This document shows, in pieces, positions 39,646 through 57,364 of a DNA stretch of 64,000 bases; positions within the stretch are counted from its first letter, which is position 1; each line of letters opens with the position of its first letter. Origin of the DNA: Epilithonimonas xixisoli (GTDB lineage Bacteria; Bacteroidota; Bacteroidia; Flavobacteriales; Weeksellaceae). The notes under the pieces were generated by a model that saw only the letters and a program-made list of their open reading frames with translations, had not been told where the DNA came from and searched no databases. Location of the stretch: assembly GCF_004365655.1 (NCBI RefSeq), contig NZ_SOEO01000002.1, forward strand, positions 620,001 through 684,000. The letters run 5' to 3'. The position numbers were made by a program, and so were the translations under genes.

Positions 39646-39697
39646 GTATGCCTTTTTCTCCTGGATTTCTTCTTTAAAAGATATTAATAACTTCCCC

Positions 39698-39752
39698 AAA
39701 GTCTATAAAAAACAAAAACCACCACATTTCTGTGATGGTTTGCTCCTCTTGC
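39698..39752. repeat. att-like repeat 1 (left boundary of island)
   Basis: A 55-bp sequence (AAAGTCTATAAAAAACAAAA, hairpin ACCACCACA-TTTC-TGTGATGGT, then TTGCTCCTCTTGC) reproduces the tRNA-Asn 3' end and its terminator. It is identical to 41164-41218 except for one base. Confidence 0.85.
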
Positions 39753-39882
39753 CTGTATCTGTTCATAGATTTGTTATTGAAATTAAGTGTTACCTTTTTT
39801 TTATGTCTTTTTGGTATATAATTCACATTTGAAAAATACAAGAATGAGGCAATTGATTTTTTTAATTGAATCATAAATTAAC

Positions 39883-39916
39883 TATATTTGATGCAATTAA
39901 ATTTTATAATTGCATC
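39883..39916 (+). promoter_or_regulatory. fic promoter with overlapping operator
   Basis: A TATATTTG -7 box (39883-39890) overlaps by one base the perfect inverted repeat GATGCAATT-N9-AATTGCATC (39890-39916), which ends 3 nt before the ATG. Binding there would block transcription start. Confidence 0.65.
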
Positions 39917-39919
39917 ACA

Positions 39920-41023
39920 ATGTATAGCTGGCAACTTCCCGATTGGGCAACTTTCACTTATGATGATTCTATGATAGACTCATTAGTAATGGATTTTGCT
40001 CTTGATACTGGTGAATTAAAAGGACTTGTAGATTCTTTGCCAGAAGAGATTCAACAAGATACCATTATCCAGTTTATGATTTCAGAAGCCATTAAAACCT
40101 CTGAAATTGAAGGAGAATTTTTTAGCAGACAGGATGTAATGTCTTCCATAAAAAAACATTTAGGGCTTTCAAATGCAATTAGTAATATCAGAGATAAAAA
40201 ATCTTTAAGGGTTGCTTCTCTTATGGTAGAAGTAAGAAAGTCCTATCAAGAAAATCTTACAGAGTCTTTGATTAAAAATTGGCATCATACCTTAATGGGT
40301 AATAGTCCTTATGTCAATGCAGGAAAATACAGGATAGGAGATGAGCCTATGCAAGTGATTTCAGGCGCTTATGGCAGGGAAATTATCCATTATGAAGCTC
40401 CACCCTCTTATCAAGTTTCTGATGAAATGAAAAATTTTATTCATTGGTATAAAGGTTTTGAGGTTTCTCCTACTGAGATTAAAAAAATCCTTATTAAGAC
40501 TTCAATTTCTCACCTATATTTTGAAAGCATTCATCCATTTGAAGATGGGAATGGAAGAATAGGAAGAGCCATTGCAGAAAAATGTCTTTCACAATCTCTT
40601 GGAAGACCTGTTTTAATGAGCCTTTCTAGTACAATTGAAAAGAACAAAAAACAATATTACTCTGCTCTTAAATCAGCTCAAAAGACATTGGATATTACAG
40701 ATTGGATATTATACTTTTCCAAAACTATTCTAGAAGCCCAAAAGAGTGCAAAGCAAATTATCCTGTTCACTCTCAGTAAAACTAAATTTATGGACAAGCA
40801 TAAATTCCAGATGAATGAAAGACAGATAAAAGCTGTTCTGAAAATGTTTGATTCGGGGATTTCAGGTTTTGAGGGTGGAATGACTTCAAGAAAGTATGTT
40901 TCCATAACAAAATCCTCTAGAGCAACTGCTACAAGAGATTTACAAGACCTTACGGATAAAAATATTATGCTTCAAAAAGGAGAGGGTAGAAATGTTAGTT
41001 ATGAGCTGAATTTGGAAAACTAG
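39920..41023 (+). CDS. Fic family protein with C-terminal winged helix
   Basis: A 367-residue AMPylase-type enzyme. The N-terminal MYSWQLPDWATFTYDD is the DUF4172 signature found in a Fic subgroup, which decides the start. The inhibitory helix motif TSEIEG (T60-E64-G65) precedes the Fic core HPFEDGNGRIGR (205-216), complete with catalytic His, so this is a self-inhibited class II Fic. Residues ~295-367 (MNERQIKAVLKMF to NVSYELNLEN) look like a winged-helix DNA-binding domain. Together with the palindrome overlapping its promoter this suggests autorepression. Targets are unknown. Confidence 0.9.
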   Translation: MYSWQLPDWATFTYDDSMIDSLVMDFALDTGELKGLVDSLPEEIQQDTIIQFMISEAIKTSEIEGEFFSRQDVMSSIKKHLGLSNAISNIRDKKSLRVASLMVEVRKSYQENLTESLIKNWHHTLMGNSPYVNAGKYRIGDEPMQVISGAYGREIIHYEAPPSYQVSDEMKNFIHWYKGFEVSPTEIKKILIKTSISHLYFESIHPFEDGNGRIGRAIAEKCLSQSLGRPVLMSLSSTIEKNKKQYYSALKSAQKTLDITDWILYFSKTILEAQKSAKQIILFTLSKTKFMDKHKFQMNERQIKAVLKMFDSGISGFEGGMTSRKYVSITKSSRATATRDLQDLTDKNIMLQKGEGRNVSYELNLEN

Positions 41024-41072
41024 ATTTCTATAAAAAACCTATAGATTTGTTATTGATTAACAACTAGATGAA

Positions 41073-41303
41073 GTGATACCTTTTTGTATGCCTTTTTTAA
41101 CAGAATAGGTAGAAAATATCAGAATTACAGAAATCCCCTAAAACCAAGACAAACCCAATACACAAAGTCTATAAAAAACGAAAACCACCACATTTCTGTG
41201 ATGGTTTGCTCCTCTTGCTGGGCTAGAGGTATTTTGAGTTTTCCTTTATAGTATTGCTTTTACTGAGTGTCAAATTCTTGGGTGTGCCTAAAAGTGTGCC
41301 TTT
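41073..41303. repeat. Arm-type motifs flanking att-like repeat 2
   Basis: GTGATACCTTTTTGTATGCC (41073-41092) on the left, and GGTGTGCCT plus AGTGTGCCT (41281-41301) on the right, resemble the ATAGGTGTACCTTTT pair near the integrase gene. They are likely integrase arm-binding sites. Confidence 0.5.
41164..41224. repeat. att-like repeat 2 (internal)
   Basis: It matches repeat 1 over 55 bp with one mismatch, and extends further into the tRNA sequence (TCCTCTTGCTGGGCT) like repeat 3. It separates the Fic unit from the main island. The flanking sequences 41024-41163 and 41225-41317 hold only arm-type motifs. Confidence 0.85.
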
Positions 41304-41317
41304 AGTATTAAAAGCCA

Positions 41318-41737
41318 CTAGAACAATAGAGAATTGTAAATAGAACTAATTAGCAAATTATTCTTTCCATAGACTATAAAAACCTTAGCATCTAAAGGAT
41401 GAGTTAGTAACAATTCTATATTATTTATAATAAAAATATTACCTTTTAATTCTTTGTGATATGATTTTTCATATTCTCCAAGTTCTAAACTGATAATTTT
41501 TTCAAACTCTTTTAATTGTTCTAAAGAATCAAAACTCATTATGATAATTACAGCTTGTAAAATATCCCAAGAAAAAACTAATTCTATGTAGCTTGTACTT
41601 ATAGTTAAAAAATCTATTTTTTTGATATAAAAATAACTATCATATCCTCTGATTCTCTCAAAATCCGAAATCTCCAAATCAAACTCCCAATTTTCATATT
41701 CTTTGCCTATTTCAAAAGGCAGTTTTATTGGTTTCAT
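41318..41737 (-). CDS. Hypothetical protein (island)
   Basis: A 139-residue cytoplasmic protein with alternating strands and helices, no signal peptide and no motif I recognise. Size and acidity would be compatible with an immunity-type protein, but no partner toxin is adjacent. It lies next to att-like repeat 2. Confidence 0.6.
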   Translation of the reverse strand: MKPIKLPFEIGKEYENWEFDLEISDFERIRGYDSYFYIKKIDFLTISTSYIELVFSWDILQAVIIIMSFDSLEQLKEFEKIISLELGEYEKSYHKELKGNIFIINNIELLLTHPLDAKVFIVYGKNNLLISSIYNSLLF

Positions 41738-41753
41738 ATTAAATCTGAGTATT

Positions 41754-41778
41754 AAAAAACCACCTATTTTGAGGTGGT
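41754..41778 (-). terminator. Terminator after the small secreted gene
   Basis: ACCACCT-N6-AGGTGGT, followed on the minus strand by TTTTTTAA. Confidence 0.75.
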
Positions 41779-41801
41779 CAATTTATGTTTTTCTGATTAT
41801 A

Positions 41802-42254
41802 CTATTTGAACTTGAAGCTATTAGTAAAAGTATAATATAACTTATCAAGCACATCTTTTTTATCACTTACAATCATTATTGTATAAGCTATATTATTATG
41901 AAAGAATATTATTTGTCTTCCAAATGCATTGGGTTGAGTAATTTCTGCTAAGAATGCTAATTCTCCCGCAAACTGAATTTCTTGGTAAGAGAAAGTTTCA
42001 GAGTTTTTTATGGACAAAAGATAATCCTTTTGTTTTGCTTTATCTCTGTAGAGCATTTTACGAATAGCTAGAAGGTATCCAGAATTACTATTTTTTTCTC
42101 CATAACTATAATTGTAAGATTGATTTTTAGGATTGTAATAATTTTCATTCTGTGTACAATTGCAATTGAAACTAAAATAGTCTGTGCTAAATGTACTTTG
42201 CGCTTGCGTTATTGTGAGATAAAAGACAAGTAAGAATGCTATGAATTTTCTCAT
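41802..42254 (-). CDS. Secreted hypothetical protein (island)
   Basis: A 150-residue exported protein (signal peptide MRKFIAFLLVFYLTITQAQ). The mature N-terminus has a Cys pair (FNCNCTQN), and the rest is predicted alpha/beta, ending KLYYTFTNSFKFK. No family recognised. Its start overlaps the stop of the upstream gene by four bases (ATGA-type), so the two are translated together. Confidence 0.7.
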   Translation of the reverse strand: MRKFIAFLLVFYLTITQAQSTFSTDYFSFNCNCTQNENYYNPKNQSYNYSYGEKNSNSGYLLAIRKMLYRDKAKQKDYLLSIKNSETFSYQEIQFAGELAFLAEITQPNAFGRQIIFFHNNIAYTIMIVSDKKDVLDKLYYTFTNSFKFK

Positions 42255-42844
42255 TTTTTCCTTTTGTTAAGTTTAAATACTAAATAGAGCATTCCTAATG
42301 TTGCAAAAAATATTAGCCCCCACTTCAGATATTTTTCTCTGTCATATTCTTTTTGCATTTCTTGAAGAGCATATTCATCAGGCATAGCATAAGGATTTAA
42401 GCCATTAGATTCTGCCATTTCCTCGTATTCTTTAGGAAACCTTTTTATATCTTGGGTAGCACTTCCATAAAGACCAGATTTATCTTCTCCATATGCATCA
42501 GCAGGTGATGGTGGGTATATATCATTACTATCTCTAGCTTTTTTCCAAAAAGTATCTTGAGATGTAATCTTTTCACTAGATTTTTTCTTTTCAGAGTTAT
42601 CTCCAATTCTTAAAATATGATTGTGATTTTTAAACTCTTTTATTTTACTATTTTTAAAAGTAATACTTGCTATTCCATATTCTCCATATCTCCATATCTC
42701 TTTACCAATTTCATCATAGATTTCAATACTTGTAGGTTCTCCCTGTAATTTTTTCACTTGCTCTTTTGTTGAACCTATGTTAATATAATTTTGACATTGG
42801 TTTTGTTGAAATATTAATATAATAAGTAAAAGTAATTTTCTCAT
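42251..42844 (-). CDS. Exported membrane-anchored hypothetical protein (island)
   Basis: A 197-residue protein with an N-terminal signal sequence (MRKLLLLIILIFQQNQCQN) and a C-terminal transmembrane helix (about 174-192, WGLIFFATLGMLYLVFKL) followed by a basic tail. Residues ~20-75 (INIGSTKEQVKKLQGEPTS, EIWRYGEYGIASITFKNSKI) match the SmpA/OmlA-like pattern GxTxxxVxxxxGxP. Function unknown. It is co-transcribed with the next secreted protein. Confidence 0.7.
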   Translation of the reverse strand: MRKLLLLIILIFQQNQCQNYINIGSTKEQVKKLQGEPTSIEIYDEIGKEIWRYGEYGIASITFKNSKIKEFKNHNHILRIGDNSEKKKSSEKITSQDTFWKKARDSNDIYPPSPADAYGEDKSGLYGSATQDIKRFPKEYEEMAESNGLNPYAMPDEYALQEMQKEYDREKYLKWGLIFFATLGMLYLVFKLNKRKK

Positions 42845-42911
42845 AGATTAGTTTTTAATATTTAATAGTTGTCATATATGGCATTAATTTAAACAAATAT
42901 ATAAACCAAAT

Positions 42912-42932
42912 TTGACTTGTCAAATAAGTCAA
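42912..42932. promoter_or_regulatory. Putative XRE operator
   Basis: A perfect inverted repeat, TTGACTT-N7-AAGTCAA, ends one base before the start codon of the XRE gene. It lies between two divergent genes and could control both. Confidence 0.6.
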
Positions 42933-42933
42933 G

Positions 42934-43173
42934 TTGGAAAGTTCTGAAATATTTAAACTTGTTGGGTCAAGAATTAAAGAATTGAGATTACAGAAAGGTT
43001 TATCTCAAGTAGAGCTAGTAGGTAAAATGGAAGGAAATATTGATGCTACTAACATTTCAAGAATAGAAGCAGGTAGAACTAATCCAACACTATTGACTTT
43101 ATACAGAATTTCTCTAGCATTAGAAATTAGTCTATACGAACTACTAAAAGTAGAAACAAGTGAAAAACTATAA
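42934..43173 (+). CDS. XRE-family transcriptional regulator
   Basis: A 79-residue single-domain helix-turn-helix protein (lambda repressor/Cro type) beginning with TTG. The HTH reads KELRLQKGLSQVELVGKMEGN, then ATNISRIEAGRTNPTLLTLYRISLALE. It probably represses itself through the palindrome that touches its start codon, and perhaps the divergent secreted genes. It has no protease or sensor domain. Confidence 0.88.
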   Translation: MESSEIFKLVGSRIKELRLQKGLSQVELVGKMEGNIDATNISRIEAGRTNPTLLTLYRISLALEISLYELLKVETSEKL

Positions 43174-43467
43174 TTTGGCTATTTGATAGTTCTTGCTACA
43201 AATTCTAGAATTTTCTCTAGGACTATATAAATATCTATTAAACCCAATATTAATGAGTATTGTAATAATTTCAAAATTTAGCTATATTAATAATATCTAG
43301 AGTTAAAATGTGATATTATAATCTAGAAAGTAATACCAATTTATACCCTTTCATTCTCTCAATTAAAGCTTCTAGAATATAAAGAGTGTAATATTCAGGT
43401 AAAGAATAAAAATGTCCAATTTGGGAATTCATTGTATATATGACTCCCCATTTTGGACATTTTAAAT
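43174..43467. other. Gene-free stretch with terminator hairpin
   Basis: 294 A+T-rich bases. The only structure seen is a long hairpin at 43409-43463 (AAAATGTCCA-A-TTTGGGGA-type arms, loop ~18 nt), serving as terminator for the minus-strand gene that ends at 43468. Confidence 0.6.
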
Positions 43468-43875
43468 TTAATCTGCTAGGACAGCATCATACTTTCCATT
43501 TTTAGAGAAAGCTTCTAAATCTGATTCAAATTTTGTTATAGAATTTGAAATGCTAGATTTAATTATTGAATCTGAAACATTCTCTGGAACATATACAAAC
43601 CTATGTTGAAGAATAAGGGATACTCCTGTTTCTCTTACAACATATTCATAAGGTTCACATTCCTGTTTTTGAATGCTTCCAGACATTTCTGTACCTATAA
43701 GTGCTTTACAGGTTTCCTCATCAAATGTAGATGAAATGAAAGTCTTTTTTGCTGTAGCATAATATTGATTGGTCTTATGACTTAATACCATTTCAATACC
43801 TCCTTGAACTTCTAAAGCACAAAAAGAAGTTCCATCCTCTCTCTGTCTTGATTTGTAACTGATAATTCTTACCAT
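43468..43875 (-). CDS. Hypothetical protein (island)
   Basis: About 135 residues if the internal ATG at 43875 is used (MVRIISYKSRQREDGTSFCALEVQGG). The longer in-frame start at 43911 adds 12 residues and cannot be excluded. The sequence is beta-rich with no signal peptide. I have seen similar small proteins beside ATPase/DUF3871 modules in Bacteroidota mobile elements, but I have no family name for it. Confidence 0.65.
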   Translation of the reverse strand: MVRIISYKSRQREDGTSFCALEVQGGIEMVLSHKTNQYYATAKKTFISSTFDEETCKALIGTEMSGSIQKQECEPYEYVVRETGVSLILQHRFVYVPENVSDSIIKSSISNSITKFESDLEAFSKNGKYDAVLAD

Positions 43876-43911
43876 TGTTTTAAATTTTTGAGTTAGATTT
43901 TTTCCTTTCAT

Positions 43912-44178
43912 ACATCATACTTCTACTTATCAAACCTTGCTATCAACTAAAGTTTAATCTGCCTGAAATTTCTCTTTTTTTATAGGAAAAGTATGGGGGA
44001 GTTTCCCTCCAATATAAGTGGGGGGCCTTAGTACTGAGGTGGAGCAAGTGCATGGAAAGGTTTTGAAAAAAAAATTGAAAAATTTCTGTTACAATGAAAT
44101 ACCTAAACTTCATAAAAATAAAGCGGGATGTCTTTGAAATTATGTAATTTTGAAATATACCACGTAATCTACAGCTTT
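43912..44178. other. Gene-free stretch with a G-rich patch
   Basis: A 267-bp gap. Around 43994-44055 it turns G-rich (G5 and G6 runs) with a small hairpin CCTTAG-TA-CTGAGG, in contrast to its A+T-rich surroundings. Nothing coding is seen. Confidence 0.5.
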
Positions 44179-46131
44179 ATGAGTAAAATGTTTACAGAAA
44201 TTAGCAGAATTGTGAATGAAGATATTAGCTCAAGAGTAACACAATATGATGTTATTTTTGAGGCAATTACTAATGCTATCCATTCAAATTCTACTGAAAT
44301 CAAGTGTTTTTTAAATTTTAATGGAAACTTAATTAAAGATGGAGATATTGAGATTGGAAGAATAAAAGTAGATACTATAAAAGTAGTGGATAATGGAGAT
44401 GGCATCACAGATGATAACTACAAGTCTTTTTCAACATATAGAACTGAATTTAAAAAAGATTTAGGTTGTAAAGGGGTTGGAAGGTTTGTATTTTTGAAAG
44501 TATATAGTTCAGCAAAATACAGTAGTGATTTAAAAGAAGCTCAAGAGCAAAGAAAAATAAAATTTCACATAAATTTTGATACTGAGAAAGACCTTAAAAA
44601 GGAAAATAAAAAAGTAACTGCTAATGAAACTGAAGTTTTTTTAGATACATTAAACAGTCAATATTTAGATTGGGATAAAAAAATAGACAGGAGAATTGAA
44701 TTAGATATTTTTTCTATCAGAGATAAAACATTAATGAATCTGATACCTACCTTATATTTCTATAAGCAGAAGGGTAGAAATATAGAAATTACTTTTTTTG
44801 ATGAGTATAGTTCAAATTCTGTAAAAATTTCTTCAACTGACATTCCTGATTTTAAAACAGAGAATTTTAATGTCCTAAATAATCAAAGTTTTAATGTAAA
44901 ATTCAAGTTAAGTCATAGTATTGAAAATTCAAGTGGAAATTTATATGCTTTTTATTGTGCAAATAATAGAACTGTATGTGATTTTGAAGATAAAAACTTA
45001 AAAATCACCTTACCTTATGGATATTCTGGATTTTTACTTTTAGAATCTGATTACTTAAGTGGCAAAGTAAATCACGAAAGAAATGACTTTGATATTTTCC
45101 CTGTCAAAACAGATATGTATTCCACTATTTCTTGGGAAATGATTAATGTTGAATTAAAGAAAGCAATCAGTGAAATTATTAAAATTGGTGTTCCAAATAC
45201 AGTTAAACTGAATAAAGCCAAGATTAATGAAATTCAAGATGAAAGACCTTATTTGGTTAATTACATTGATGAAAATGATGTTGAGATAGCTGGTGTTTTA
45301 GACAAAAAACACATTATTGAAAAGGCTAAAAAGAAGTTTGATGAATCCAAAGAAACAGTATTGAGTAATGCAAACAAATCTGAATTTACAGATGAAGAAT
45401 TAACACAAGCAATTTTATTGGCTCAAAATGAATTAATCTCATATATCAATGATAGGGTTATTGTTATTGATAAACTTAAAAAACTAATTGATAAAGGAGA
45501 ACAGGTGGAGGCTATTATTCATAACATGATAATGGAAAAATACACTACAGATAGCAAGTCAAAAGATGATTTTTTAATTCTTAACAAGAATAATTTGTGG
45601 CTATTGGATGACAGATTTACTACCTATAGTTTTGCAGCAAGTGATAAAAGAGTAAAGGATATTTTGAAAGAACTTGATATTCCTGATGAAGACACTAAAA
45701 TAATAAATGATAAACCAGATTTTTCAATTTTTTTCTCTCACAATCCACACAACAATGATAGACTAAAATCTGTGCTTGTAGAACTAAAACCATTTGATTA
45801 TAAAAACAAATCTCATAGAAAAAAGCATCAAGGTCTGTTGCAATTAAGAGAGTATTTAGAAGCTTTTAAATCAAAAGAAAAAATAAAAGAAGTTTATGGC
45901 TACCTTATAACTGATATTGACGATGATTTTGCTGATACTTTAAAAAAGGATGAGTATGTAGCTATGTATTCATCTGAATATCCAATTTATCATAAATATT
46001 ACAAGAATCTTGACATATCAATATTTGTTGTTAGTGTTAAAACTATGATTTATGATGCTGAGGCAAGAAATAAAATGTTTTTAGAAATAATAAGAAAAAA
46101 TAGTAAAATAAATAAAATCTTTGGAAAATAA
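44179..46131 (+). CDS. GHKL ATPase fused to a predicted PD-(D/E)xK nuclease
   Basis: A 650-residue protein (ATG at 44179 chosen; a start 51 bp upstream is possible). The N-terminal ATPase of the Hsp90/MutL type shows the N-box EAITNAIHSN (29-38), DNGDGI (71-76) and GCKGVGRF (96-103). A middle domain and coiled coil (~380-470) follow. The C-terminal part has NLWLLDDRF, then KPDFSIFF (~512) and VLVELKPFD (~532), a PD-x(n)-ExK signature, and HQGLLQLREYL. This layout recurs among bacterial ATP-binding proteins found in mobile and defence contexts. Nuclease activity is inferred, not shown. Confidence 0.8.
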   Translation: MSKMFTEISRIVNEDISSRVTQYDVIFEAITNAIHSNSTEIKCFLNFNGNLIKDGDIEIGRIKVDTIKVVDNGDGITDDNYKSFSTYRTEFKKDLGCKGVGRFVFLKVYSSAKYSSDLKEAQEQRKIKFHINFDTEKDLKKENKKVTANETEVFLDTLNSQYLDWDKKIDRRIELDIFSIRDKTLMNLIPTLYFYKQKGRNIEITFFDEYSSNSVKISSTDIPDFKTENFNVLNNQSFNVKFKLSHSIENSSGNLYAFYCANNRTVCDFEDKNLKITLPYGYSGFLLLESDYLSGKVNHERNDFDIFPVKTDMYSTISWEMINVELKKAISEIIKIGVPNTVKLNKAKINEIQDERPYLVNYIDENDVEIAGVLDKKHIIEKAKKKFDESKETVLSNANKSEFTDEELTQAILLAQNELISYINDRVIVIDKLKKLIDKGEQVEAIIHNMIMEKYTTDSKSKDDFLILNKNNLWLLDDRFTTYSFAASDKRVKDILKELDIPDEDTKIINDKPDFSIFFSHNPHNNDRLKSVLVELKPFDYKNKSHRKKHQGLLQLREYLEAFKSKEKIKEVYGYLITDIDDDFADTLKKDEYVAMYSSEYPIYHKYYKNLDISIFVVSVKTMIYDAEARNKMFLEIIRKNSKINKIFGK

Positions 46132-46227
46132 TAGTAAGAACAAGACTTAACAATTTAAATATGTAGAAACGTAATTTCGAATAATGAACAATAATGATTT
46201 ACTAACTTAACAATATGAATTTATTTT

Positions 46228-47058
46228 ATGGATACATTTGAATTTTTAAAGAGCATAACAAGTCTTACAGATAAAATTAACAAGAGTATATATCCCTTTA
46301 AAACAAATGAGTGGCAACCTAGAATAAATTTAGGTATAGAATTTAATCAGCTTAGTAAAAGTATGAGTTACAATAAAAATCATTTACAGAATCATTTATT
46401 TCAATTATCTAATACTACAAATTTGGGATATGAATTAAACAAAACTATTTTTAATCAATTAAATAATAATATTGGGATAATTATTAATAATGGTATTTTA
46501 GATAAAATCAATTCTGTAGGGTATTGGGGTAATATTGCTAAACTTTCATTACTAAATATTACCCAAGTTTCCACTTATGAAGAAGATATAGCAGATTCAC
46601 AAATTATTTCAAATAATATTGAAGTTATAAATCAGACTATTGAAGAGATAGAAAAAAACCCAATTGAATTTTTTAACAATCTGGTTATTTTTATCAAAAC
46701 ATATATAGATAAAAATCCCTCTGTAAAGTATACTGCTAGATTTATATTATTTTTCATTTCACTATATATTACAGCTTTAATAACTAATGAAATGTCAAAG
46801 AATAGTGATGAGAAGCCTACAGTAAATAATATTACTATAAATAATTATTATAATAAGGATAATGAAAAATTTAAGATAAATTGTAAGTTTATTGACCTCA
46901 AAAATTTCCCAAGGGATAATTCTAAATCACTTCACAGATTAGTAAATAATGATAGATTAATAGTTTTAAAAGACAGCTTAAAATGGGCTTTCGTTATAAA
47001 AGAAAACTCTATAGAAACAGGATGGATTAGAAAAGAACATCTTAAAATTGTAAAATAG
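46228..47058 (+). CDS. Membrane protein with SH3-like C-terminal domain
   Basis: A 276-residue protein. Residues 1-165 are mainly helical. A transmembrane segment follows (about 169-188, ARFILFFISLYITALIT), then an Asn-rich linker (VNNITINNYYNKDN). The C-terminal ~60 residues (KINCKFIDLKNFP to GWIRKEHLKIVK) resemble a bacterial SH3 domain, with the WAFVI and GWI strands. It lies 96 bp downstream of the GHKL-nuclease gene on the same strand, and tail-to-tail (8 bp) with the YobI-like gene. It could be a membrane effector or anchor, but that is inference. Confidence 0.7.
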   Translation: MDTFEFLKSITSLTDKINKSIYPFKTNEWQPRINLGIEFNQLSKSMSYNKNHLQNHLFQLSNTTNLGYELNKTIFNQLNNNIGIIINNGILDKINSVGYWGNIAKLSLLNITQVSTYEEDIADSQIISNNIEVINQTIEEIEKNPIEFFNNLVIFIKTYIDKNPSVKYTARFILFFISLYITALITNEMSKNSDEKPTVNNITINNYYNKDNEKFKINCKFIDLKNFPRDNSKSLHRLVNNDRLIVLKDSLKWAFVIKENSIETGWIRKEHLKIVK

Positions 47059-47066
47059 AATCAACT

Positions 47067-50000
47067 TTATTCATTATAGCTAACTGTTATTACCGAATCT
47101 TTATCTTTTAAATAAGTTCTTTTTATAAAACCATATTGTTGCAAGATTTTCATAAAATCTGTATTTTCAGAGGAATTTGGGATTTCAATTTTTTCCTTTT
47201 GCAGAATTAGCGAATATGGAGGGTTTAATAGTTCCAGATAATCTTTAAGAAGAACATCTGTAATATTATCTTTATCAAAAATTAAAAGTTTAATTTTAAT
47301 TGTAGTATCAAGATTGGATTCAAGTACACTCTTAACAAAAAAATCAGAAAATGAATAAAACTTACTACTGAAAAAATTATTTATAATGGTAAGCAAAAAA
47401 ACATCTTCATCTGAATCATAAATTTCTTCGTTTGTTAAATAAACAAATATTTTCTTTTTCAAATCTCCATCAATATGGGATTTGAATATTGTTACCCATT
47501 TTATCAAGAGCAAATTTAAGGTTTCATACTCTTCTTCTAAATTTGCCTCATTCTTCTCAATAAATAATTCTAAATCTCCACCAACTAAATCTGTCAAATT
47601 CTTTTCATTGAAAACTATTAAATGTGATTCAATCAGATTTTTAATTCTGTCTGTTTTATTTACTACAGCAATATCATCAAAATTTTTTGTCATTGAATGG
47701 ACTAATGATTCAAATGATTCATTGGAAATTTCAGAATTAACTAGAGAAACATTAAATTTATCAATAATTATGGAATATTCTTTCTCATCTGTTTCGCTTT
47801 CATTTTCTAAAAAATCATTGATACAGCTCTTACCAAGCTCTTGATAATTTATTTCATTATCTAAAAATTCAACAAAACTGGCATCAATTTTTTCAGAATT
47901 GTAAGAATAATACAGTAAAACATTTTTCCAATTAGGTTCAATCTTCTCCCAAATAATAAGTGAAGACCAAAACGCATTATTTTCTATTTCTGACAGGTCA
48001 GAAATTTTAAAATTCATTTTTTCTATCAATGATTCAATGTTTTCTTCTTTAACATCAGTATTATTAATTAAATCTTTAACCACATTATTTTCTTCCTCAG
48101 TATTACTATCAAGTTTCAATAAAACCTGTTCAACATATTCATTAATATTATTTTTAATATTTTCTTTCAGATATGTCACATCAGATTTGAGTAAATATGA
48201 ATAATTAGAAGTCTTATAATCTAGAATATCAATATCCTTGAAATTAAATTTCTGTAAAAATAAATTGACATTATTTATATTTATCTTATACAAGTTATTT
48301 TCAATTATTTCTAAAACAATCTCAAATATGGAGTCTTCATATTTTATTTTGTTGAATTTAATTCCTATCGTCTTTAGCTTTTTAATTAATTCATCTTTGG
48401 TTTCTCTGTCAAAATTATTTATTAAAAAATCATCATAGTTATTTAGAAAAGCATTTATCTTTCTATCCTTGTTAAGGATTTTTATCTTGTCAATGTTCGT
48501 GTATTTGAATATTTTATCCAAGATTTTCTTTTTCTTTTCAGCATTAAATTCATCTCTAGAATGAATCAAATTCCAAAAGCCCTCCCAATAAGCCATTTTT
48601 CTAATAAATTCATTGCTTGTTCCAGTTAATTCTGAAAAATCAATATATTTTTCTATAAAATGAACAGATTTTTCTTTCCCATTAGTCAATGTATTAAGGA
48701 ATTCATCTAATTTGTTACTTACCTTTTCATTGTCTTTGTAATTGTAAAGTAGATAATCTAGAATATAGAAATTCAATATTGATTCTTTTTTGAAATTAGT
48801 GCTTCCTAGTTCAGTAACTAAATTTTTGATTTTGTCAATACTTTCATTGAAATGTGTTTCCCCGTCTTGAATAATTCTTAATTTAAGATTATTATCCTTT
48901 TCTGTAATTGATTCAGGGTAGAATAAAGAAACATAATTTGAATAGTTTTCATCAATATAGTTATTACTTATAAGAACTTTTAAAAGAGTGTAGTTATGTT
49001 TTATTTCTTCGATTTTAGCCTCTCTCTCATAATCATCCTTTGATTCAATATCTGTAAAAATATCACGAACAATTTTATCAAAATAACTGTCAAGTTTATT
49101 TTTTTCAGATTGCTTTAATAAATCATTTAATGATGAATTACTCAAATTATTTATCTGTGATTTTAATTTAAGAATTTCAGAATCATTTATTGCTTTTATG
49201 TTGTTTATTTTGTTTAATACAATTCTTCTTCTTTCAGCATATTTTTGTTGAGGGTTAATATCTTTCTCAACATCACTGAATTTTATAAACTTACTAATAT
49301 GATTCCTATAATAAGTTATCACATCACTTTTTATAAATTCTGAAAATTTTTGATCCTCCAATAAGCTTTCCAATTCAATAGTTTTATTATCAATATAATA
49401 ACTCGTAGCATCATTTGACTTCATTAATATTCCAGAAATATATACCCTACGTAATTCTAAAAGATTGTCTTGCTGTTCTTGAAGAATATCATCATTTTCT
49501 TGCTCTATTATTTCAATTTTTTTGTAGAGACTTTCTTCTAAGTCTTTATATAGCTCATTTTTATTTTCAAATATTTTATAAACAACACCCTCTTTATTCT
49601 GTAAAGATTTAAAATCAATAGGGTAAATATTTTTTAGTATAATAAGTCCAAATAGATAGTCTCCATTTATATTGTTGTTTTCATTGCTTTTGATTTTATA
49701 GTATGTTTTGAATTCATTAATAATATTAATAAGGCTTCTCATATCACTGATATAAGGAGAAATATTATAAATAATGTCTTCAGAGATAATCTTATTTTCA
49801 ATAAAATCTTTTTTTAATCTTTTAATAAATTGAGTGTTTGAGTTGCTATAATCTACAATTGGAATTATTGGTATAATCAAATCAAAAAACTTTGTTTTTT
49901 CATTATTTTTACTAAATAACTCATCTTTAACTGCGTATACAAAAGTTACTTTTTGATTAATGTCTTTTGAATTATTGATAATTATATTCAACTCTCTTAA

Positions 50001-50858
50001 TTTAATAAAAATGTCAACTGCATCATCAAATCTGTCAATATCTTCTATAAAGACAATTTGTGTTTTTGTCTTTTCAAAAAAGTAAACTAACTCATCAACA
50101 TGCTTATTTATAATTGAAATATCATTAGCTTTAGGTACAAATTCTGCATCACTGAAACTTACCTTGTTAATTTTTAGTTTAAAAATCTGCCTAAATAGCT
50201 TTTTTAAGATTAAAAAAATACCTGTCAAAAAAAGCAGTTTAATTATATAGTTATAAGAAGGAAGCTCAACTTTGTTAACCAAAGTTAGCTTATTATATAT
50301 TTTTTCAAAAAAAAGATATAATATTGAATAAATCCAAAGAATAAAAAGTAAGGCTTTTACTAAAATAAATTTGTCATAAGTAATTCTTTCAAACCTAGAA
50401 TCTTTTAAGTTTTTTTTCTTTTCAAAGTATAAAATTTGTTGAACAATGCTAGTTTCAATATCCACCTCATTTTGTTTATTTTTTCCTTCAAATTTCCCAA
50501 GATTTATATCTAGCGTTTTGAATTCAGGATTATTTTTTTTGAATAAATTCAGAATTGTGCTTTTTCCTGTACCAAAAGAGCCAGAAACAGCAACGTTTTT
50601 TACATTTTGATTTAACACTCCCCATTTTAAAGATTGCAAGTATGTATGTTGATTGTAATTATTTTCCTCTCTTTTTGTGATATAAGGAGTTAGATCTTCT
50701 AAGTCATTGGGATTTGGATTATTTTTTGTTAAAAGTTTGATTTTTTTCTCTCCAAGAAAAAAAATGAGCCTTGATAAAAAATCTAAATAGGAGCTATTTA
50801 AATTAGATTTAAGACACAAATATCTTTCATTGATTTTGTTTAAAAATTTACTTTTCAC
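47067..50858 (-). CDS. YobI/KAP-type membrane P-loop NTPase, 1263 residues
   Basis: A very large NTPase. After a short helical N-terminus comes Walker A GSFGTGKST (93-101). Two transmembrane helices are inserted in the NTPase domain (about 164-184 and 205-223), then Walker B IVFIEDIDRFDD (268-279). This insertion is the hallmark of KAP-family NTPases, and the YobI-ATPase subgroup is the best match. Residues ~400-1263 form a long, helical, repeat-like region with many Glu, Asn and Lys and no recognisable motif. KAP/STAND-type NTPases are frequent in antiphage systems. Sensor and effector parts cannot be separated by eye. Confidence 0.8.
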   Translation of the reverse strand: MKSKFLNKINERYLCLKSNLNSSYLDFLSRLIFFLGEKKIKLLTKNNPNPNDLEDLTPYITKREENNYNQHTYLQSLKWGVLNQNVKNVAVSGSFGTGKSTILNLFKKNNPEFKTLDINLGKFEGKNKQNEVDIETSIVQQILYFEKKKNLKDSRFERITYDKFILVKALLFILWIYSILYLFFEKIYNKLTLVNKVELPSYNYIIKLLFLTGIFLILKKLFRQIFKLKINKVSFSDAEFVPKANDISIINKHVDELVYFFEKTKTQIVFIEDIDRFDDAVDIFIKLRELNIIINNSKDINQKVTFVYAVKDELFSKNNEKTKFFDLIIPIIPIVDYSNSNTQFIKRLKKDFIENKIISEDIIYNISPYISDMRSLINIINEFKTYYKIKSNENNNINGDYLFGLIILKNIYPIDFKSLQNKEGVVYKIFENKNELYKDLEESLYKKIEIIEQENDDILQEQQDNLLELRRVYISGILMKSNDATSYYIDNKTIELESLLEDQKFSEFIKSDVITYYRNHISKFIKFSDVEKDINPQQKYAERRRIVLNKINNIKAINDSEILKLKSQINNLSNSSLNDLLKQSEKNKLDSYFDKIVRDIFTDIESKDDYEREAKIEEIKHNYTLLKVLISNNYIDENYSNYVSLFYPESITEKDNNLKLRIIQDGETHFNESIDKIKNLVTELGSTNFKKESILNFYILDYLLYNYKDNEKVSNKLDEFLNTLTNGKEKSVHFIEKYIDFSELTGTSNEFIRKMAYWEGFWNLIHSRDEFNAEKKKKILDKIFKYTNIDKIKILNKDRKINAFLNNYDDFLINNFDRETKDELIKKLKTIGIKFNKIKYEDSIFEIVLEIIENNLYKININNVNLFLQKFNFKDIDILDYKTSNYSYLLKSDVTYLKENIKNNINEYVEQVLLKLDSNTEEENNVVKDLINNTDVKEENIESLIEKMNFKISDLSEIENNAFWSSLIIWEKIEPNWKNVLLYYSYNSEKIDASFVEFLDNEINYQELGKSCINDFLENESETDEKEYSIIIDKFNVSLVNSEISNESFESLVHSMTKNFDDIAVVNKTDRIKNLIESHLIVFNEKNLTDLVGGDLELFIEKNEANLEEEYETLNLLLIKWVTIFKSHIDGDLKKKIFVYLTNEEIYDSDEDVFLLTIINNFFSSKFYSFSDFFVKSVLESNLDTTIKIKLLIFDKDNITDVLLKDYLELLNPPYSLILQKEKIEIPNSSENTDFMKILQQYGFIKRTYLKDKDSVITVSYNE

Positions 50859-50895
50859 TGACTTATAGTTTTTTGCAAATTACAAATTATTAAAT

Positions 50896-50920
50896 AAAAC
50901 CACCCTACATTTCTGTAGGG
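50896..50920 (-). terminator. Terminator after DUF3871 gene (att-like)
   Basis: CCCTACA-TTTC-TGTAGGG, followed on the minus strand by TGGTTTTATTT. The flanking bases (AAAACCACC before, TTCCTCTAAC after) resemble the att repeats. Confidence 0.7.
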
Positions 50921-50928
50921 CAGTTCCT

Positions 50929-52074
50929 CTAACTCAAAAACCAATGATAATCAGAATTACCATTGAGAGTTTTTTGAATACCTTTTGAAAATTCAAAGGC
51001 ATTCAAATTCCTATCTAGGAATGTATCTATGTAAGATGATTTATTAGCTTGGGTAAACAAGTTGTAAACATCCCACAAGTTTATTCTGCCATCTTCTAAC
51101 CTACAAAAGTTTTTATCCTCATAGTAATCCTTTGCCATTGTATTAATGTGGCTATCATTAAAACTGAGAACAGGAATATTTTCTCTCTCTAGCTTAGGTA
51201 AATGTTGGTATAATCTGCTTCTACCAATGAGCTGTGCAAACTGATGTTCTGACAAATATTCTTGAGAAAGTTCTTTCATTTCCATCAAATGATGTTCAGC
51301 ATTATAATTCTGAATAGTCTCTAGAACTTTTGAATATAACTCTTGTGTGCTGGAAACTTTCAACTCTGCTAAAAAACCATCTGTTGACACACATAGATTG
51401 CAACAAACCTTATTCTGAAAACCAATAAAGAATTTAAACCTCTCAAAAGTTTTTTTATTGTACAAATTTTCCAAGTTATAGCTCCTTACACCTCCAATAC
51501 ATAGAGATAAGTCATTACCATTTACTACATCTGTGATACTAGGAATTCTAATGATAAATGCCATTCTCTCATAATAAATAGTTTTCTGATGTTCTAACAA
51601 ATCTTTTACATTAAGATGTATTGCTTCAGGAGTTCTACCTTTAATCTGATGTGAAACCCTAATCTCAGGCTCTGAAATTGTTTGATATGGAAATGCTTTT
51701 TGTGTTGCAGTAATTACACATTCTATAAACTCTTGATGCGCTATAGTCTTTTCATTATCTTTAGAGAATACAGGAATTATACAATCATTTTTTAGATGAT
51801 GTAATGGAACTTCAAGTGTGTTAGCTAGAATAAATGGATTAGATTGATAATTGGAAGATATATTTTTTTCTCTAGGATTATTAGAATCAGATATTAAAAA
51901 AGCCTGAACTAGATTTTTAGTGTCAGGCTCTTTAATATCATTCATTTTACTAGGATAAAATACTTCAGCATTTTGAAAATCTCCATTGCTAAAATATAAA
52001 TCACTTATAGGCTTCCTTGTTTTTACATTCTGCAATGTCATATTGCTAGAATTATTGAAATTTTGATTGTCCAT
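50929..52074 (-). CDS. DUF3871 family protein
   Basis: A 381-residue protein matching the DUF3871 family that I associate with Bacteroidota mobile elements. Patterns such as SNPFILANT, VSHQIKGRTPEA, CIGGVRSYNLENLY and KFFIGFQNKVCCNLC are family-like. Its biochemical role is unknown. It overlaps the upstream ATPase gene by 23 bp, which implies tight co-expression with the RecA-like ATPase and suggests a shared role in element replication or recombination. Confidence 0.85.
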   Translation of the reverse strand: MDNQNFNNSSNMTLQNVKTRKPISDLYFSNGDFQNAEVFYPSKMNDIKEPDTKNLVQAFLISDSNNPREKNISSNYQSNPFILANTLEVPLHHLKNDCIIPVFSKDNEKTIAHQEFIECVITATQKAFPYQTISEPEIRVSHQIKGRTPEAIHLNVKDLLEHQKTIYYERMAFIIRIPSITDVVNGNDLSLCIGGVRSYNLENLYNKKTFERFKFFIGFQNKVCCNLCVSTDGFLAELKVSSTQELYSKVLETIQNYNAEHHLMEMKELSQEYLSEHQFAQLIGRSRLYQHLPKLERENIPVLSFNDSHINTMAKDYYEDKNFCRLEDGRINLWDVYNLFTQANKSSYIDTFLDRNLNAFEFSKGIQKTLNGNSDYHWFLS

Positions 52075-52987
52075 TTTTACTGAAGTTTTGATTAGGTAAA
52101 TGAATTAGGATTGATTTTCTAGCTTCAAAATCTGGTTTCAAAGAAATATGATATTGAGGAAATTGTTTGTATAAAGAAAGAAGTTCTGCTATGGAATTAC
52201 AATCCCTAATAGCATTATAAACCTCTTCCTCTGTAGCTTGAAATTGTTGTTCAGAGCTCTCAATAATCCCATTAACTCTAGAGGCTGATGAGGTTTGGGA
52301 TGAAGGTTGTATTTCAATTCCTGTGTTACACCAATCTAATATTTCCTTTCCTGTCTTATCAGAGATTATAAATTCTGGTTTTCCCATAAACAAGCCTGTT
52401 CTATCTTTACTTGACACAGTAAAATGCTTTATATCTACATCAAAGACTAGAGTAAACTCATAATCTAAACCATCTCTCTGAACAGATTTTAAACCCACTT
52501 TCTCTGGAATAAATTTTCCATCTTTTTGATTCAGAACATAATCCTGTTTGGTTCTCATTGTGACAATAATATGAGCATTTGCTTGCAAGATTTTATCTAC
52601 AAAAGCTTTTTGTCTTGGAGTAACTTTTGCCCAGTTTGTAAAACTGTTTCCTGCTAACTTAGAATGAAAATCTAATAGTTCATCCCAACAATGGGAAATA
52701 CTGTCTAAAATAATCACTTCCATTCCAGCATTGGCACAAATGTCAATAGCTTTTATGTAGTTTTCAGGAGTGAATGGGGGAGCAAGAGAAAGCACATTAT
52801 ATTCTCCCAAATGAGCATATAAGTCTGCACTCCCATTTTCTGTATCAATAATAGCTACTTTGGTAAAGTCTCCATTTGTAAGTCCTTTGGCAAGAAGTAA
52901 GCTTGAATAGGTTTTACCACTTCCTGAACATCCTTGTAAACCAATTTTTATCTTGGCTTGTTTTCTTTCTGATTGTCTTAATTGCAT
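52052..52987 (-). CDS. RecA-like AAA ATPase (Sak4-type)
   Basis: A 311-residue ATPase. Walker A is GCSGSGKT (19-26) and Walker B MEVIILDSISH (about 93-103). The ID-TENGSADLYAHLG motif and the RQKAFVDKIL region match the AAA_24/Sak4 phage single-strand-annealing-type ATPases. Such proteins assist recombination-dependent replication of phages and related elements, usually with an SSB. No SSB gene is visible in the window. It overlaps the DUF3871 gene. Confidence 0.82.
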   Translation of the reverse strand: MQLRQSERKQAKIKIGLQGCSGSGKTYSSLLLAKGLTNGDFTKVAIIDTENGSADLYAHLGEYNVLSLAPPFTPENYIKAIDICANAGMEVIILDSISHCWDELLDFHSKLAGNSFTNWAKVTPRQKAFVDKILQANAHIIVTMRTKQDYVLNQKDGKFIPEKVGLKSVQRDGLDYEFTLVFDVDIKHFTVSSKDRTGLFMGKPEFIISDKTGKEILDWCNTGIEIQPSSQTSSASRVNGIIESSEQQFQATEEEVYNAIRDCNSIAELLSLYKQFPQYHISLKPDFEARKSILIHLPNQNFSKNGQSKFQ

Positions 52988-53359
52988 AAATTTTAGTATT
53001 TAAAAAAGTTAATAAAAATGTGAATTTTAAAATTTGGCTATTTGCTTTAATCTTCTTCTAGTAGGGGCAAAACACTTGATAATGTCATAAAAAAATTGTA
53101 GCTTTGTGCATCAAATCACTTGATACAAAAAACTACAACTGAGTTGTCCTCCTCTGAATTCGTGCGTTGTTAAATCTTAGATTTTTAAGATGGGGGAGAT
53201 TTAAAAGAACCCCCTATTAGTTATAAGATTTTAGCTAGGTTCTTTTGAGAATATGATAAAACATCCATATGTTATGTTTTTTAATCCCACATAGAGTAGT
53301 GTAAAAATGTGTATTCTCCGTATAGATATATATTATATCTACGGGAAATACACATTTTT
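52988..53359. other. Gene-free stretch with two large hairpins
   Basis: A 372-bp gap in the replication module. At 53096-53138 lies a three-part stem: TTGTAG / CTACAA, TTTGT / ACAAA and ATCAA / TTGAT around a 5-nt loop. At 53303-53359 a second, ~57-bp near-palindrome (AAAAATGTGTATT arm, then CCGTA and AGATATA) abuts the helicase stop codon. The second may serve as terminator. Either might also belong to an origin. Confidence 0.65.
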
Positions 53360-55900
53360 TTATAAAGTAATACTTTTCAGTAATTTTTCTAGTTCTTCTG
53401 AAGAGTCTGTGGTATCTGGATAAGAATGTAAATAATCTTGACTTTCAATTAAGTTTATTGCAATTGCTTTGCTTGGAATAGTTTTAATGGAATTAATGAT
53501 TTTACAATTCCTTCTACTGCCATACAAAGTTATATATGGGTCTCGTACTTTCTTATCAATAAAAAGAAAATCTTCAAGTAAAATAGAGTAAAAGGTTTTG
53601 AGTTTACCATTTAGAGTTCTATTATCTATAAATCTTCTTTTAAATTCAAACATATTATCTCTCAAAATACTATCAGACTCCAAAAGCACTATTATTTCTT
53701 GGACTTTAGCTACATCTGATGTACTAAAAAAATCACCCCACATATTAGTTGGTGTACAAAAAAAGTGGTCTCTTCCTCTATGATATTCATACAAAGAGTT
53801 AATCAATTTTTCTCTAAAATAGTTGATATGTTGGTAGAGTTTTACTCTGTGTTTATAATCTCCTTCAGCAAGTGTAGATAAATCTATGTCTTTGGAATGA
53901 GAGATACATTCTAGAAAATAATCACTTCTAGTATAATCTTCATCATCTGTAGATTTTAAGCTAAAGTGTTTTAGCTTATATGTATAGAGTAATAGTTGTA
54001 GTTCAAATTTCTTAGCTACAGGTGAACCTTTTTCTATATTTTCATAATCTGAACTTCCCTCTTTTTTGAATTTTAGTTGATAATCTGCATAAAGAGAATT
54101 TCTAAAGTCCTGATAGAAGAGGTTAAAATTGGAATATTGTCCTAATGACTCTAGATAATCCTCTCCAAAGAAATTTTTATACACAAAATGAAGCATAGAC
54201 TGCACACTTCCCTCGTCAAAGGCTATAACAGGTTTAAAACTAATGCCCCTTAATCTACAATTTATAAATTGATTTGCAAGAGAAGCATATGTGGTATAAG
54301 CACTAATATCTTCTCCAAATATTGAGAATTTATTTGCTAGATAATCTTCTCCTGATTCAAGTTTAAATTCTTGAAAAGTTGGGAAACTTAGTTTGGGAAG
54401 AGTATTATTTCTGCCACTTGCAGACACGGCAGTAATTTCATTAAGTACATTTCCTTTTAGTTTGTTATCATAGAATTCTCTTAGAAAATAATCTTGTCTG
54501 TTGAGTTTGATATATTTAACAAACTTTTCAGGAGTCTTGTGATACTTTACTAATTCATAATGGTCTTTAAAAATGTCTTTCTGTAAAGGAGACATTCCTG
54601 AATGGTCTAAAGTGTCATAATCAAAATGATCAGGTTTAGGTAAAATAATATGAATTTCCCCTTTCTTTCTCTGTCTTGCAAGAGCTTGAATTATGGAATT
54701 TATGCCACCAGAAAATATACCATATTTATTTCTAAAAGTTAATCTTGAACTTCTAGGTGGTAAGATAATTACAAGAGCATGATTATCTTTTTTTATGCTT
54801 ACACCAGTTTTGAAGTTAGTTCCAATGTTGCATTTGTCATTATCATATTGATTGGTAGGTTCTTCATTTTCTTCTCTTTGATTTGAAATTAATTCTGATG
54901 TACAATCTTTAACTTCTCCAAAAGTGTCAAAAATAAGTTTCCCTATATCATTGCTGGTATTTAATAAATTTTTAGCTAAGTTTCTAGAATAAGATAGTAT
55001 ATCTATATTTTTATCTCTAGCTATTAAATCTTCAATAACATTAGATATTTCTTTGGTTTTATGTGTAAAAGAATATGAGCTTGAAAAGTGCAGATACAAA
55101 TCACTTTGCTTTTTGGGAAATCTTTTCCTTTCAGATTCTATGATTTTAATTCTGAAATCAGTTAATTCAGCTAAATACTCAATAACTATTTTAGATGCTT
55201 CATTATAGGTTGCACTTAGTACGAAGTTTTTATGAATAACACTTTTCCATTTCCAGAGATTAAAAATGTATTCCTGCTTAAAATTATGAAATGAGTCGTG
55301 AATTTCATCATAAATAAAAACAACTTTTATTGATTTTTCTTGACAATGTTTTACTAAGTCATTTATGTACTCCCTCTTGATATCAGAATTTTTAAAACCA
55401 TCTTCCCCTGGGTTGCCTAATAATGTGTTAACAGTTACTATTTGAACAGTTTTATTGATATAATCTTTGGTTGTATCCCTCCCCAATTTTTCATAACTAT
55501 ATATTTGACCAGAGTCAATTCCTGCCTTTATTACATCATTATGATATTGTTTAACTAAGCTAACAAAAGGAGATGCTATGAATATCAGGTATTTCTCCTT
55601 AGCATCAAAATATCTTTTAACTGTCTGAATAATTGCATGGGATTTACCTTGTCCCACAGCAGCATTAATAACCACAGTATTTTTATGTTCTAGCTCAATT
55701 AAACCTTGTAAAGTATCATTGATATATCCATCATCATTAGGTTCAATTAAAATTTTATCTCCACCATTCTCAATAATAAAATCTGACCTAGATATTCTAG
55801 TACCACTAGTATCAAAGACATATTGAAAATCTTCAGGATTTATTTCTTTGAATTCTATAGGAAATGAATCAAAATGGGCAAGGTCTACATCTATGTACAT
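53360..55900 (-). CDS. DEAD/DEAH-box (SF2) helicase-like protein
   Basis: An 846-residue protein with superfamily 2 helicase motifs. These are Walker A AAVGQGKS (80-87), motif II FIYDEIHD (195-202), motif III LSAT (228-231) and a motif VI-like QALARQRKKGE. The C-terminal ~400 residues have no recognised domain. It is likely the replication initiator/helicase of the island, by analogy with origin-binding-protein-like helicases in phage satellites. That role is inferred from its place between the integrase and the RecA-like ATPase. Confidence 0.78.
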   Translation of the reverse strand: MYIDVDLAHFDSFPIEFKEINPEDFQYVFDTSGTRISRSDFIIENGGDKILIEPNDDGYINDTLQGLIELEHKNTVVINAAVGQGKSHAIIQTVKRYFDAKEKYLIFIASPFVSLVKQYHNDVIKAGIDSGQIYSYEKLGRDTTKDYINKTVQIVTVNTLLGNPGEDGFKNSDIKREYINDLVKHCQEKSIKVVFIYDEIHDSFHNFKQEYIFNLWKWKSVIHKNFVLSATYNEASKIVIEYLAELTDFRIKIIESERKRFPKKQSDLYLHFSSSYSFTHKTKEISNVIEDLIARDKNIDILSYSRNLAKNLLNTSNDIGKLIFDTFGEVKDCTSELISNQREENEEPTNQYDNDKCNIGTNFKTGVSIKKDNHALVIILPPRSSRLTFRNKYGIFSGGINSIIQALARQRKKGEIHIILPKPDHFDYDTLDHSGMSPLQKDIFKDHYELVKYHKTPEKFVKYIKLNRQDYFLREFYDNKLKGNVLNEITAVSASGRNNTLPKLSFPTFQEFKLESGEDYLANKFSIFGEDISAYTTYASLANQFINCRLRGISFKPVIAFDEGSVQSMLHFVYKNFFGEDYLESLGQYSNFNLFYQDFRNSLYADYQLKFKKEGSSDYENIEKGSPVAKKFELQLLLYTYKLKHFSLKSTDDEDYTRSDYFLECISHSKDIDLSTLAEGDYKHRVKLYQHINYFREKLINSLYEYHRGRDHFFCTPTNMWGDFFSTSDVAKVQEIIVLLESDSILRDNMFEFKRRFIDNRTLNGKLKTFYSILLEDFLFIDKKVRDPYITLYGSRRNCKIINSIKTIPSKAIAINLIESQDYLHSYPDTTDSSEELEKLLKSITL

Positions 55901-55954
55901 ATTTCAAGTTTAACTGCCTTGTAAAAATAATACAAAGCAGTTAAAAAATTTAAT

Positions 55955-57157: not shown

Positions 57158-57181
57158 AAATGTAGATTTAATGGGGATTAT

Positions 57182-57217
57182 ATAGGTGTACCTTTTCAAA
57201 AAATAGGTGTACCTTTT
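57182..57217. repeat. Arm-type direct repeats near the integrase
   Basis: ATAGGTGTACCTTTT occurs at 57182-57196 and 57203-57217, 21 bp apart, between the integrase start and att-like repeat 3. They are candidate arm sites for the integrase. Confidence 0.65.
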
Positions 57218-57301
57218 TATATGCCTAATTTTTAAAGAAATTGTTAAGAAATAAAAATCACAGAAACCTAGAAATTCCCACAAAACCAGCCTAACCCAAT
57301 T

Positions 57302-57364
57302 CACAAAGTATAAAAAACAAAAACCACCACATTTCTGTGATGGTTTTGCTCCTCTTGCTGGGCT
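57302..57364. repeat. att-like repeat 3 (right boundary, in tRNA-Asn)
   Basis: The copy at the intact tRNA gene. It includes the tRNA terminator hairpin and the last ~16 bases of the tRNA. It differs from repeats 1 and 2 by a 2-base gap (AGTATA for AGTCTATA) and one extra T. Confidence 0.85.
57311..57345 (-). terminator. tRNA-Asn terminator
   Basis: On the minus strand AACCATCACA-GAAA-TGTGGTGGTT is followed by TTTGTTTTTT. Confidence 0.8.

Follow-up and report, generated by a model that had tools for sequence, protein, structure and literature searches.

Three kinds of described protein come closest to the genes considered here. Tmn is a one-gene system. It has been described as an NTPase of the KAP family that has two unusual transmembrane domains and can inhibit phages T2, P1, phiVi and phiX by a mechanism termed unexplored (PMC11846954). 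VcSduA of Vibrio cholerae is a GHKL-type Shedu protein (type I-D) that blocks phages; protection is lost on change of either the GHKL glutamate E27 or the nuclease lysine K557, and the protein was assigned to Shedu because of DUF4263 (PMC12137116). The paraMORC3 proteins combine a GHKL ATPase, an S5-like region and a C-terminal restriction-endonuclease-type motif and occur in restriction-modification operons or standalone in Bacteroidetes (Iyer et al. 2008, PMC2292703). Genes for proteins resembling these are neighbours in a 64,000-nucleotide stretch of the Epilithonimonas xixisoli genome (contig NZ_SOEO01000002.1, positions 620,001 to 684,000; hereafter the window, in whose own numbering coordinates are given), where an initial annotation had proposed a single three-gene defence system. 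We consider it likely that an integrative element of 16.2 kb at a tRNA-Asn gene has its cargo slot here, and that this slot holds two independent defence-type modules arranged tail to tail: a Tmn-type NTPase, and a GHKL ATPase with a C-terminal nuclease signature accompanied by a small transmembrane (TM) protein with an SH3-like tail, here called TM-SH3.

Open reading frame (ORF) calling confirmed all three genes at their originally annotated positions. The GHKL gene lies in a plus-strand ORF (44128–46131, 667 amino acids) whose internal ATG at 44179 is the start in most homologues of a 14-sequence alignment; the product read from this ATG (44179–46131, plus strand, 650 amino acids) holds the HATPase_c_3 domain and the conserved motifs. 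The TM-SH3 gene (46228–47058, plus strand, 276 amino acids) follows in the same direction after a gap of 96 bases and is met tail to tail, with 8 bases between, by the gene for the Tmn-type membrane KAP/YobI P-loop NTPase (47067–50858, minus strand, 1263 amino acids, GTG start). The three cargo genes have a G+C content of 23–26%, as opposed to about 36% in the chromosome on either side. Chance is no realistic explanation for the observed ORFs, domains and PD-x20-ExK signature. Promoter scans were uninformative: a Bacteroidota-type pattern gave 6 sites in 39600–57450 against 2.8 expected, none of them at the three gene starts, and a sigma-70-type pattern gave 70 against 55 expected. Genes in the loci used for comparison were called with a crude in-house ORF caller.

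By its sequence, the 1263-residue protein is a homologue of Tmn, an already named anti-phage protein. It matches YobI-ATPase in Pfam (PF20693, E = 5.8e-91) and the PADLOC model for Tmn (PDLC02220, E = 4.6e-87; residues 52–1005 against model positions 25–1016 of 1273), and it carries a Walker A motif at 93, hydrophobic segments at 164–182 and 204–222 and a Walker-B-like motif at 269, in keeping with its first description as a membrane P-loop NTPase of the YobI type and with the published account of Tmn (PMC11846954). The accompanying statement that the set matches no named system fails for this protein. The NTPase is of a known kind, and we report no new three-gene system. Matches to PF20693 over the cut-off occur in 22 of the 316 genomes of the family searched, that of the window included, and 15 of the 21 other carriers were examined over 10–19 kb each without a GHKL or SH3 homologue being found at any of these Tmn loci. 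Besides the window's own, two genomes in the family sample (G064 and G205) carry both the GHKL and the Tmn family. Their GHKL relatives are distant and far from Tmn: a single contig of G064 has the two genes at 1.10 and 3.91 Mb, and in G205 they lie on different contigs. If the window copies defend against phages, as we infer, Tmn would answer a phage signal and act at the membrane alone. The mechanism of Tmn is reportedly the subject of a preprint from 2026 (Wu et al.) that has plasmolysis in its title. A split form of the gene was also seen, in which a Tmn homologue is divided between two ORFs of 490 and 673 amino acids (L110, 8602–12255).

The GHKL protein exceeds the Pfam cut-off for HATPase_c_3 (E = 4.2e-6), and its nuclease signature, consisting of PD at 513–514, 20 further residues and ExK at 535–537, is invariant in the 14 aligned sequences, so that its initial reading as a GHKL ATPase with a C-terminal PD-x(n)-ExK signature is upheld. 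Among 32 GHKL loci found, 31 cover the nuclease positions (L029 is incomplete); D514, E535 and K537 are kept in all 31 and P513 in 28. The ATP-binding residues E28, N32, D71, G73, G75, G96, G99 and G101 are likewise invariant in the 31 loci covering these positions, a count that excludes L016, whose ORF as called lacks the N-terminal part. The AlphaFold model (mean pLDDT 70.5) matches the ATPase regions of Hsp90, SMCHD1, MLH1, MutL and MORC2, with TM-scores by target length of 0.5–0.56 against the MLH1 and MutL ATPase fragments taken as wholes. By analogy, E28 and K537 are taken as putative counterparts of VcSduA E27 and K557. The nuclease domain cannot be recognised as DUF4263, for a profile search of the window genome with SduA_C (PF14082, DUF4263) was empty down to E = 1; PADLOC also gave no SduA match, and none to Tiamat, which carries weight if its library includes a Tiamat model. 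The protein is VcSduA-like in layout yet is not filed as Shedu because no DUF4263 match was found. Among five other genomes searched with SduA_C, those of L023 and L025 gave sub-threshold matches of 13.5 and 12.3 bits, which by coordinates and frame length map to the C-terminal end of distant GHKL relatives.

With the Tmn match and this VcSduA/paraMORC3-like layout, both large proteins are of kinds known in phage defence, as had been supposed at the outset. In the second module, ATP binding would close a dimeric GHKL clamp on DNA, and the closed clamp would license the C-terminal PD-(D/E)xK domain to cut DNA; the TM-SH3 protein would probably be an accessory by which this module, or else the site under defence, is tied to the inner membrane. 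As to other carriers, viral contigs contained no relative of the GHKL or TM-SH3 protein, and viral carriage was rejected. Carriage by plasmids was rejected as well, since the plasmid search gave no TM-SH3 match and 12 matches to the GHKL protein, all at just 21–36% identity.

The proposal of a tRNA-inserted element with this locus as its cargo is borne out by a tRNA-Asn gene (57348–57422, minus strand), an adjoining tyrosine recombinase, or integrase (55955–57304, minus strand; PF00589, E = 1.9e-19), and att repeats. A 66-bp repeat that overlaps the 3' end of tRNA-Asn (attR, 57302–57367) recurs as attL at 41161–41227, which agrees with attR in 63 of 68 columns, and in a third copy at 39697–39752, which agrees with it in 54 of 57; the repeat alignments score 108 and 96, whereas no score above 30 arose in 60 mononucleotide shuffles of 27 kb. 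From the repeat copies we take the element to extend over 41161–57367 (16.2 kb). Its backbone genes, all on the minus strand, are a DEAD/DEAH helicase found in part of the related elements (53360–55900; PF00270, E = 4.6e-9), an AAA_24 ATPase (52052–52987; PF13479, E = 2e-17), a DUF3871 gene at the near border of the cargo slot (50929–52074; PF12987, E = 1.1e-146) and, at the far border, a small conserved gene that we label MVRI (43468–43911), recognised by homology across DUF3871 loci. The third att copy forms the outer border of a short segment (39753–41160) between two att copies, with a lone Fic-family gene (39866–41023; PADLOC SoFic, E = 1.4e-49); it looks as if the main element had been joined in tandem by a small cassette or remnant.

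This backbone (integrase, AAA, DUF3871, the MVRI gene and often the helicase) recurs around changing, largely defence-type cargo. DUF3871 was found in 37 of 395 genomes of the order (36 over the cut-off), and 31 DUF3871 loci were sampled. In 19 of them the MVRI gene and DUF3871 flank a slot of variable content, 2.1–12.1 kb long; this arrangement was not seen in the other 12, five of which have the MVRI gene on the other side. An AAA_24 homologue is present in all 33 DUF3871 loci (the 31 sampled, L002 and L009) and a helicase homologue in 7 of 19 elements followed beyond the integrase. The integrase is at least 45% identical to that of the window in 12 of the 19 slot elements, and in 10 of these 12 a tRNA gene (Met, Val or Ser) lies within 500 bases beyond it; none was found within that distance in L129 and L133, the latter with an 84%-identical integrase. 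Six further slot elements have a distant integrase (below 31% identity) and no tRNA gene within 500 bases, and in one no integrase was found.

Among the genes in these slots are those of type IIG and type II restriction-modification, a Lamassu-like LmuB and the Hachiman helicase HamB, along with others. With a PADLOC threshold of E ≤ 1e-5, a match was obtained for the largest cargo gene in 10 of 19 elements and for the largest gene of the left flank in 3 of 19 (one-sided Fisher test, p = 0.019); at E ≤ 1e-20, a threshold chosen after the matches had been seen, the counts are 9 and 1 of 19 (p = 0.004). The L081 gene was included in this test though its product exceeds 1700 amino acids, and the L105 protein was not counted. 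A scan of 104 cargo proteins, from which those below 90 or above 1700 amino acids were excluded, matched 538 PADLOC models, as opposed to 21 among 150 flank proteins, numbers that count models and not proteins because many models are redundant; the 150 were drawn from 171 flank proteins, all 20 of L093 and L102 and one of L072 being excluded. L002 and L009, which have the same backbone with restriction-modification and GHKL cargo, did not enter the slot statistics, having been found via the GHKL gene. In the literature searched, we saw no paper linking the DUF3871 backbone or its slot to defence, and the one that names DUF3871 concerns iron response. Eight loci from two further families of the order, f3 and f8, make up a second type of DUF3871 locus (L094–L101); five of the eight have the MVRI gene across AAA_24, on its opposite side, and some seem by eye to hold methylase-like cargo.

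Tmn also occurs next to DUF3871 elsewhere. In G064, which belongs to another genus, the immediate neighbour of DUF3871 is a Tmn with 62.5% identity to that of the window and in the same orientation as there (L105), with other co-cargo that includes one PADLOC PDC-M62A-like gene. A cassette of Tmn and genes for proteins of 389, 685 (PDC-M62A-like) and 476 amino acids occurs both there (L105, 9104–17600) and in a second genome of the same genus (L106, 8936–17429), with 97.7–99.7% identity at the protein level; the L105 copy stands beside DUF3871, and no DUF3871, AAA_24 or integrase homologue was found in the 19 kb examined around the L106 copy.

The strongest competitor to the two-module reading joins the GHKL-nuclease with the TM-SH3 protein in an obligate two-gene system and leaves Tmn separate; we regard this as possible without favouring it. 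The TM part of the small protein and its SH3-like tail agree with the initial annotation: it has a single hydrophobic segment (168–186), a sub-threshold Pfam match to SH3_3 (E = 0.003) and a C-terminal SH3 fold supported by the well-modelled end of a structure prediction that is otherwise poor (pLDDT 54.9), its N-terminal part being helical at low confidence. The two genes have the same direction, and no terminator-like site was found within 43900–51000, where 1.2 would be expected. In one relative, L008, the GHKL gene is followed directly by the gene for a membrane protein of another type, a TIR-TM protein (11997–13019; PADLOC, E = 1.2e-117). Set against this, none of the 11 close GHKL loci (L002–L012, 46–63% identical) has an SH3 homologue, nor one of Tmn, within at most 10 kb per side (less on short contigs, two of the 11 lying on contigs below 7 kb); their downstream genes are varied; a TM-SH3 relative in G095 has no GHKL homologue in the 16.9 kb examined; and VcSduA acts alone (PMC12137116).

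The TM-SH3 protein itself is rare. It was found in 2 of 320 family genomes; among the 395 genomes of the order, the window's own alone gave a strong match, beside two weak ones of 20.4 and 20.6 bits, and a search of 247 genomes of the class returned the same protein and one generic match (L122). The latter was rejected as a relative, being a small generic SH3 protein of other architecture with a signal-like start and phage-like neighbours. Three other loci, L068, L070 and L071, encode proteins with an N-terminal part, a TM segment and a C-terminal SH3 domain, each at most two genes from defence-type genes. In L068 the gene is preceded, in the same direction, by T5orf172 (PDC-S57) and Abi_C/AbiJ genes; in L070 it follows, again in the same direction, a gene without a family match that is itself preceded by an AAA_13 gene (PDC-S06, E = 4e-274), so that in both loci it is the last gene of a run that includes a defence-type gene, in line with the two-gene alternative; in L071 it converges with two genes, the farther of which encodes a TIR-STING CBASS effector. 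The examined stretches of these three loci contain no GHKL or Tmn homologue.

One bold version would make TM-SH3 a portable membrane partner recruited by unrelated defence operons, here by the GHKL-nuclease and elsewhere by AbiJ/Abi_C with a GIY-YIG-type protein, by an AAA_13 system and possibly by TIR-STING CBASS; a GHKL-nuclease freed from restriction-modification would thereby become a two-gene, membrane-anchored defence system at the place where phage DNA enters. We consider this unlikely. A firm link of TM-SH3 with defence is weakened by the small number of loci (four, the window included), by the low identity of the L070 and L071 proteins to that of the window (23% and 18%) and by a gene of the type VI secretion or phage baseplate kind that also lies near the L068 gene. 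It is further weakened in that the L070 protein was missed by the TM-SH3 profile at E = 0.1 and the L071 protein has a second, weaker hydrophobic segment.

It is also conceivable, if improbable, that the GHKL protein is a stranded restriction-modification subunit, idle here, which would need a methylase and a helicase. Such an operon precedes the GHKL gene in 6 of the 11 close loci, as type III-like mod and res genes in L002, L003 and L011 and as a helicase with an Eco57I-type methylase in L005, L006 and L009 (typed by Pfam in L002, L003 and L009, to which L005, L006 and L011 were assigned by BLASTP). In the host genome, no match was found to the type III methylase of L002 (the L003 genome, as positive control, was matched) or, in a search without positive control, to the Eco57I-type methylase of L009, and the one PF01555 match, of 21.5 bits, is under the cut-off. 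Nevertheless, all catalytic residues are kept, homologues at 78–96% identity exist, standalone paraMORC3 genes are recorded for Bacteroidetes by Iyer et al. (PMC2292703), and VcSduA is described as active alone (PMC12137116).

That all three genes form one system, with the NTPases as sensors of infection and the nuclease or the membrane protein as effector, is highly improbable, for although they are neighbours in one slot, with the Tmn and SH3 genes 8 bases apart and tail to tail, no other examined locus (11 GHKL, 15 Tmn, and L068, L070 and L071) has any two of the three, the GHKL and Tmn genes lie far apart in the two other family genomes that carry both, no co-occurrence of the three families within about 10 kb was seen in the examined loci, where the homologues are mostly alone or have unrelated neighbours (an outcome that the initial annotation had itself named as speaking against its proposal), and Tmn is treated as one protein inhibiting several phages (PMC11846954).

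Two side observations concern GHKL-type genes. In L003 (10544–11008) and L009 (11953–12438), the end of the GHKL gene coincides with the start of a gene for a protein of 154–161 amino acids; the two proteins are 63% identical, the L009 copy has no Pfam match and the L003 copy no PADLOC match, and they represent a possible conserved partner of the GHKL gene in restriction-modification contexts. In the cargo slot of another element, L083 (5919–8831) encodes a 971-residue protein whose start resembles, by eye, a GHKL/MORC ATPase; it has no PADLOC match, and its gene adjoins genes that look methylase-like and Vsr-like.

The two-module reading is supported by the identity of Tmn, its recurrence without the other two genes, the GHKL layout, the invariant catalytic residues and the cargo slot. 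Several points weigh against it. The nuclease domain falls under every Pfam family cut-off (PDDEXK_9, E = 0.015; NucS_C, E = 0.02), is weak in the AlphaFold model (pLDDT about 45–80) and gave no solved relative in sequence searches of solved structures, which yielded nothing of use, and neither the GHKL nor the TM-SH3 protein matches any PADLOC model. The role given to the TM-SH3 protein is a guess. Because the GHKL gene comes after a restriction-modification operon in 6 of the 11 close loci, its standalone state may be a broken habit. As to the slot, the largest cargo gene is without a PADLOC match in 9 of the 19 elements and some slots contain no obvious defence gene; the examined stretch of L105 ends before the far (MVRI) border, and its integrase is 29% identical to that of the window.

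In place of a guessed three-gene system, the analysis offers two separately testable modules, each with an experimentally studied relative, and a family of tRNA-inserted elements in the order with a fixed cargo slot between two marker genes; reading the DNA between these markers is a way to look for further defence genes. A lead is the position of TM-SH3 within two genes of unrelated defence genes in all three other loci found with this layout.

Compared with Tmn, the window NTPase shares the profile match over most of its length, the YobI/KAP P-loop domain, the two TM segments inside the NTPase domain and the single-gene form; no difference in layout was seen for this copy, which is known from its sequence alone. 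With VcSduA, the GHKL protein shares an N-terminal GHKL ATPase and a C-terminal PD-(D/E)xK signature in one protein and a place within a genomic island next to a system unrelated to it (PMC12137116); it differs in lacking an SduA_C match and in being followed by a TM-SH3 gene, a comparison of features and not of directly compared sequences. The layout of GHKL with a C-terminal nuclease signature is also that of paraMORC3, from which the window locus differs in having no adjacent restriction-modification partner gene and in the membrane protein gene that follows. With integrative elements that carry defence cargo (defence islands), the 16.2-kb element has in common an integrase at a tRNA gene, a conserved backbone and variable, defence-type cargo.

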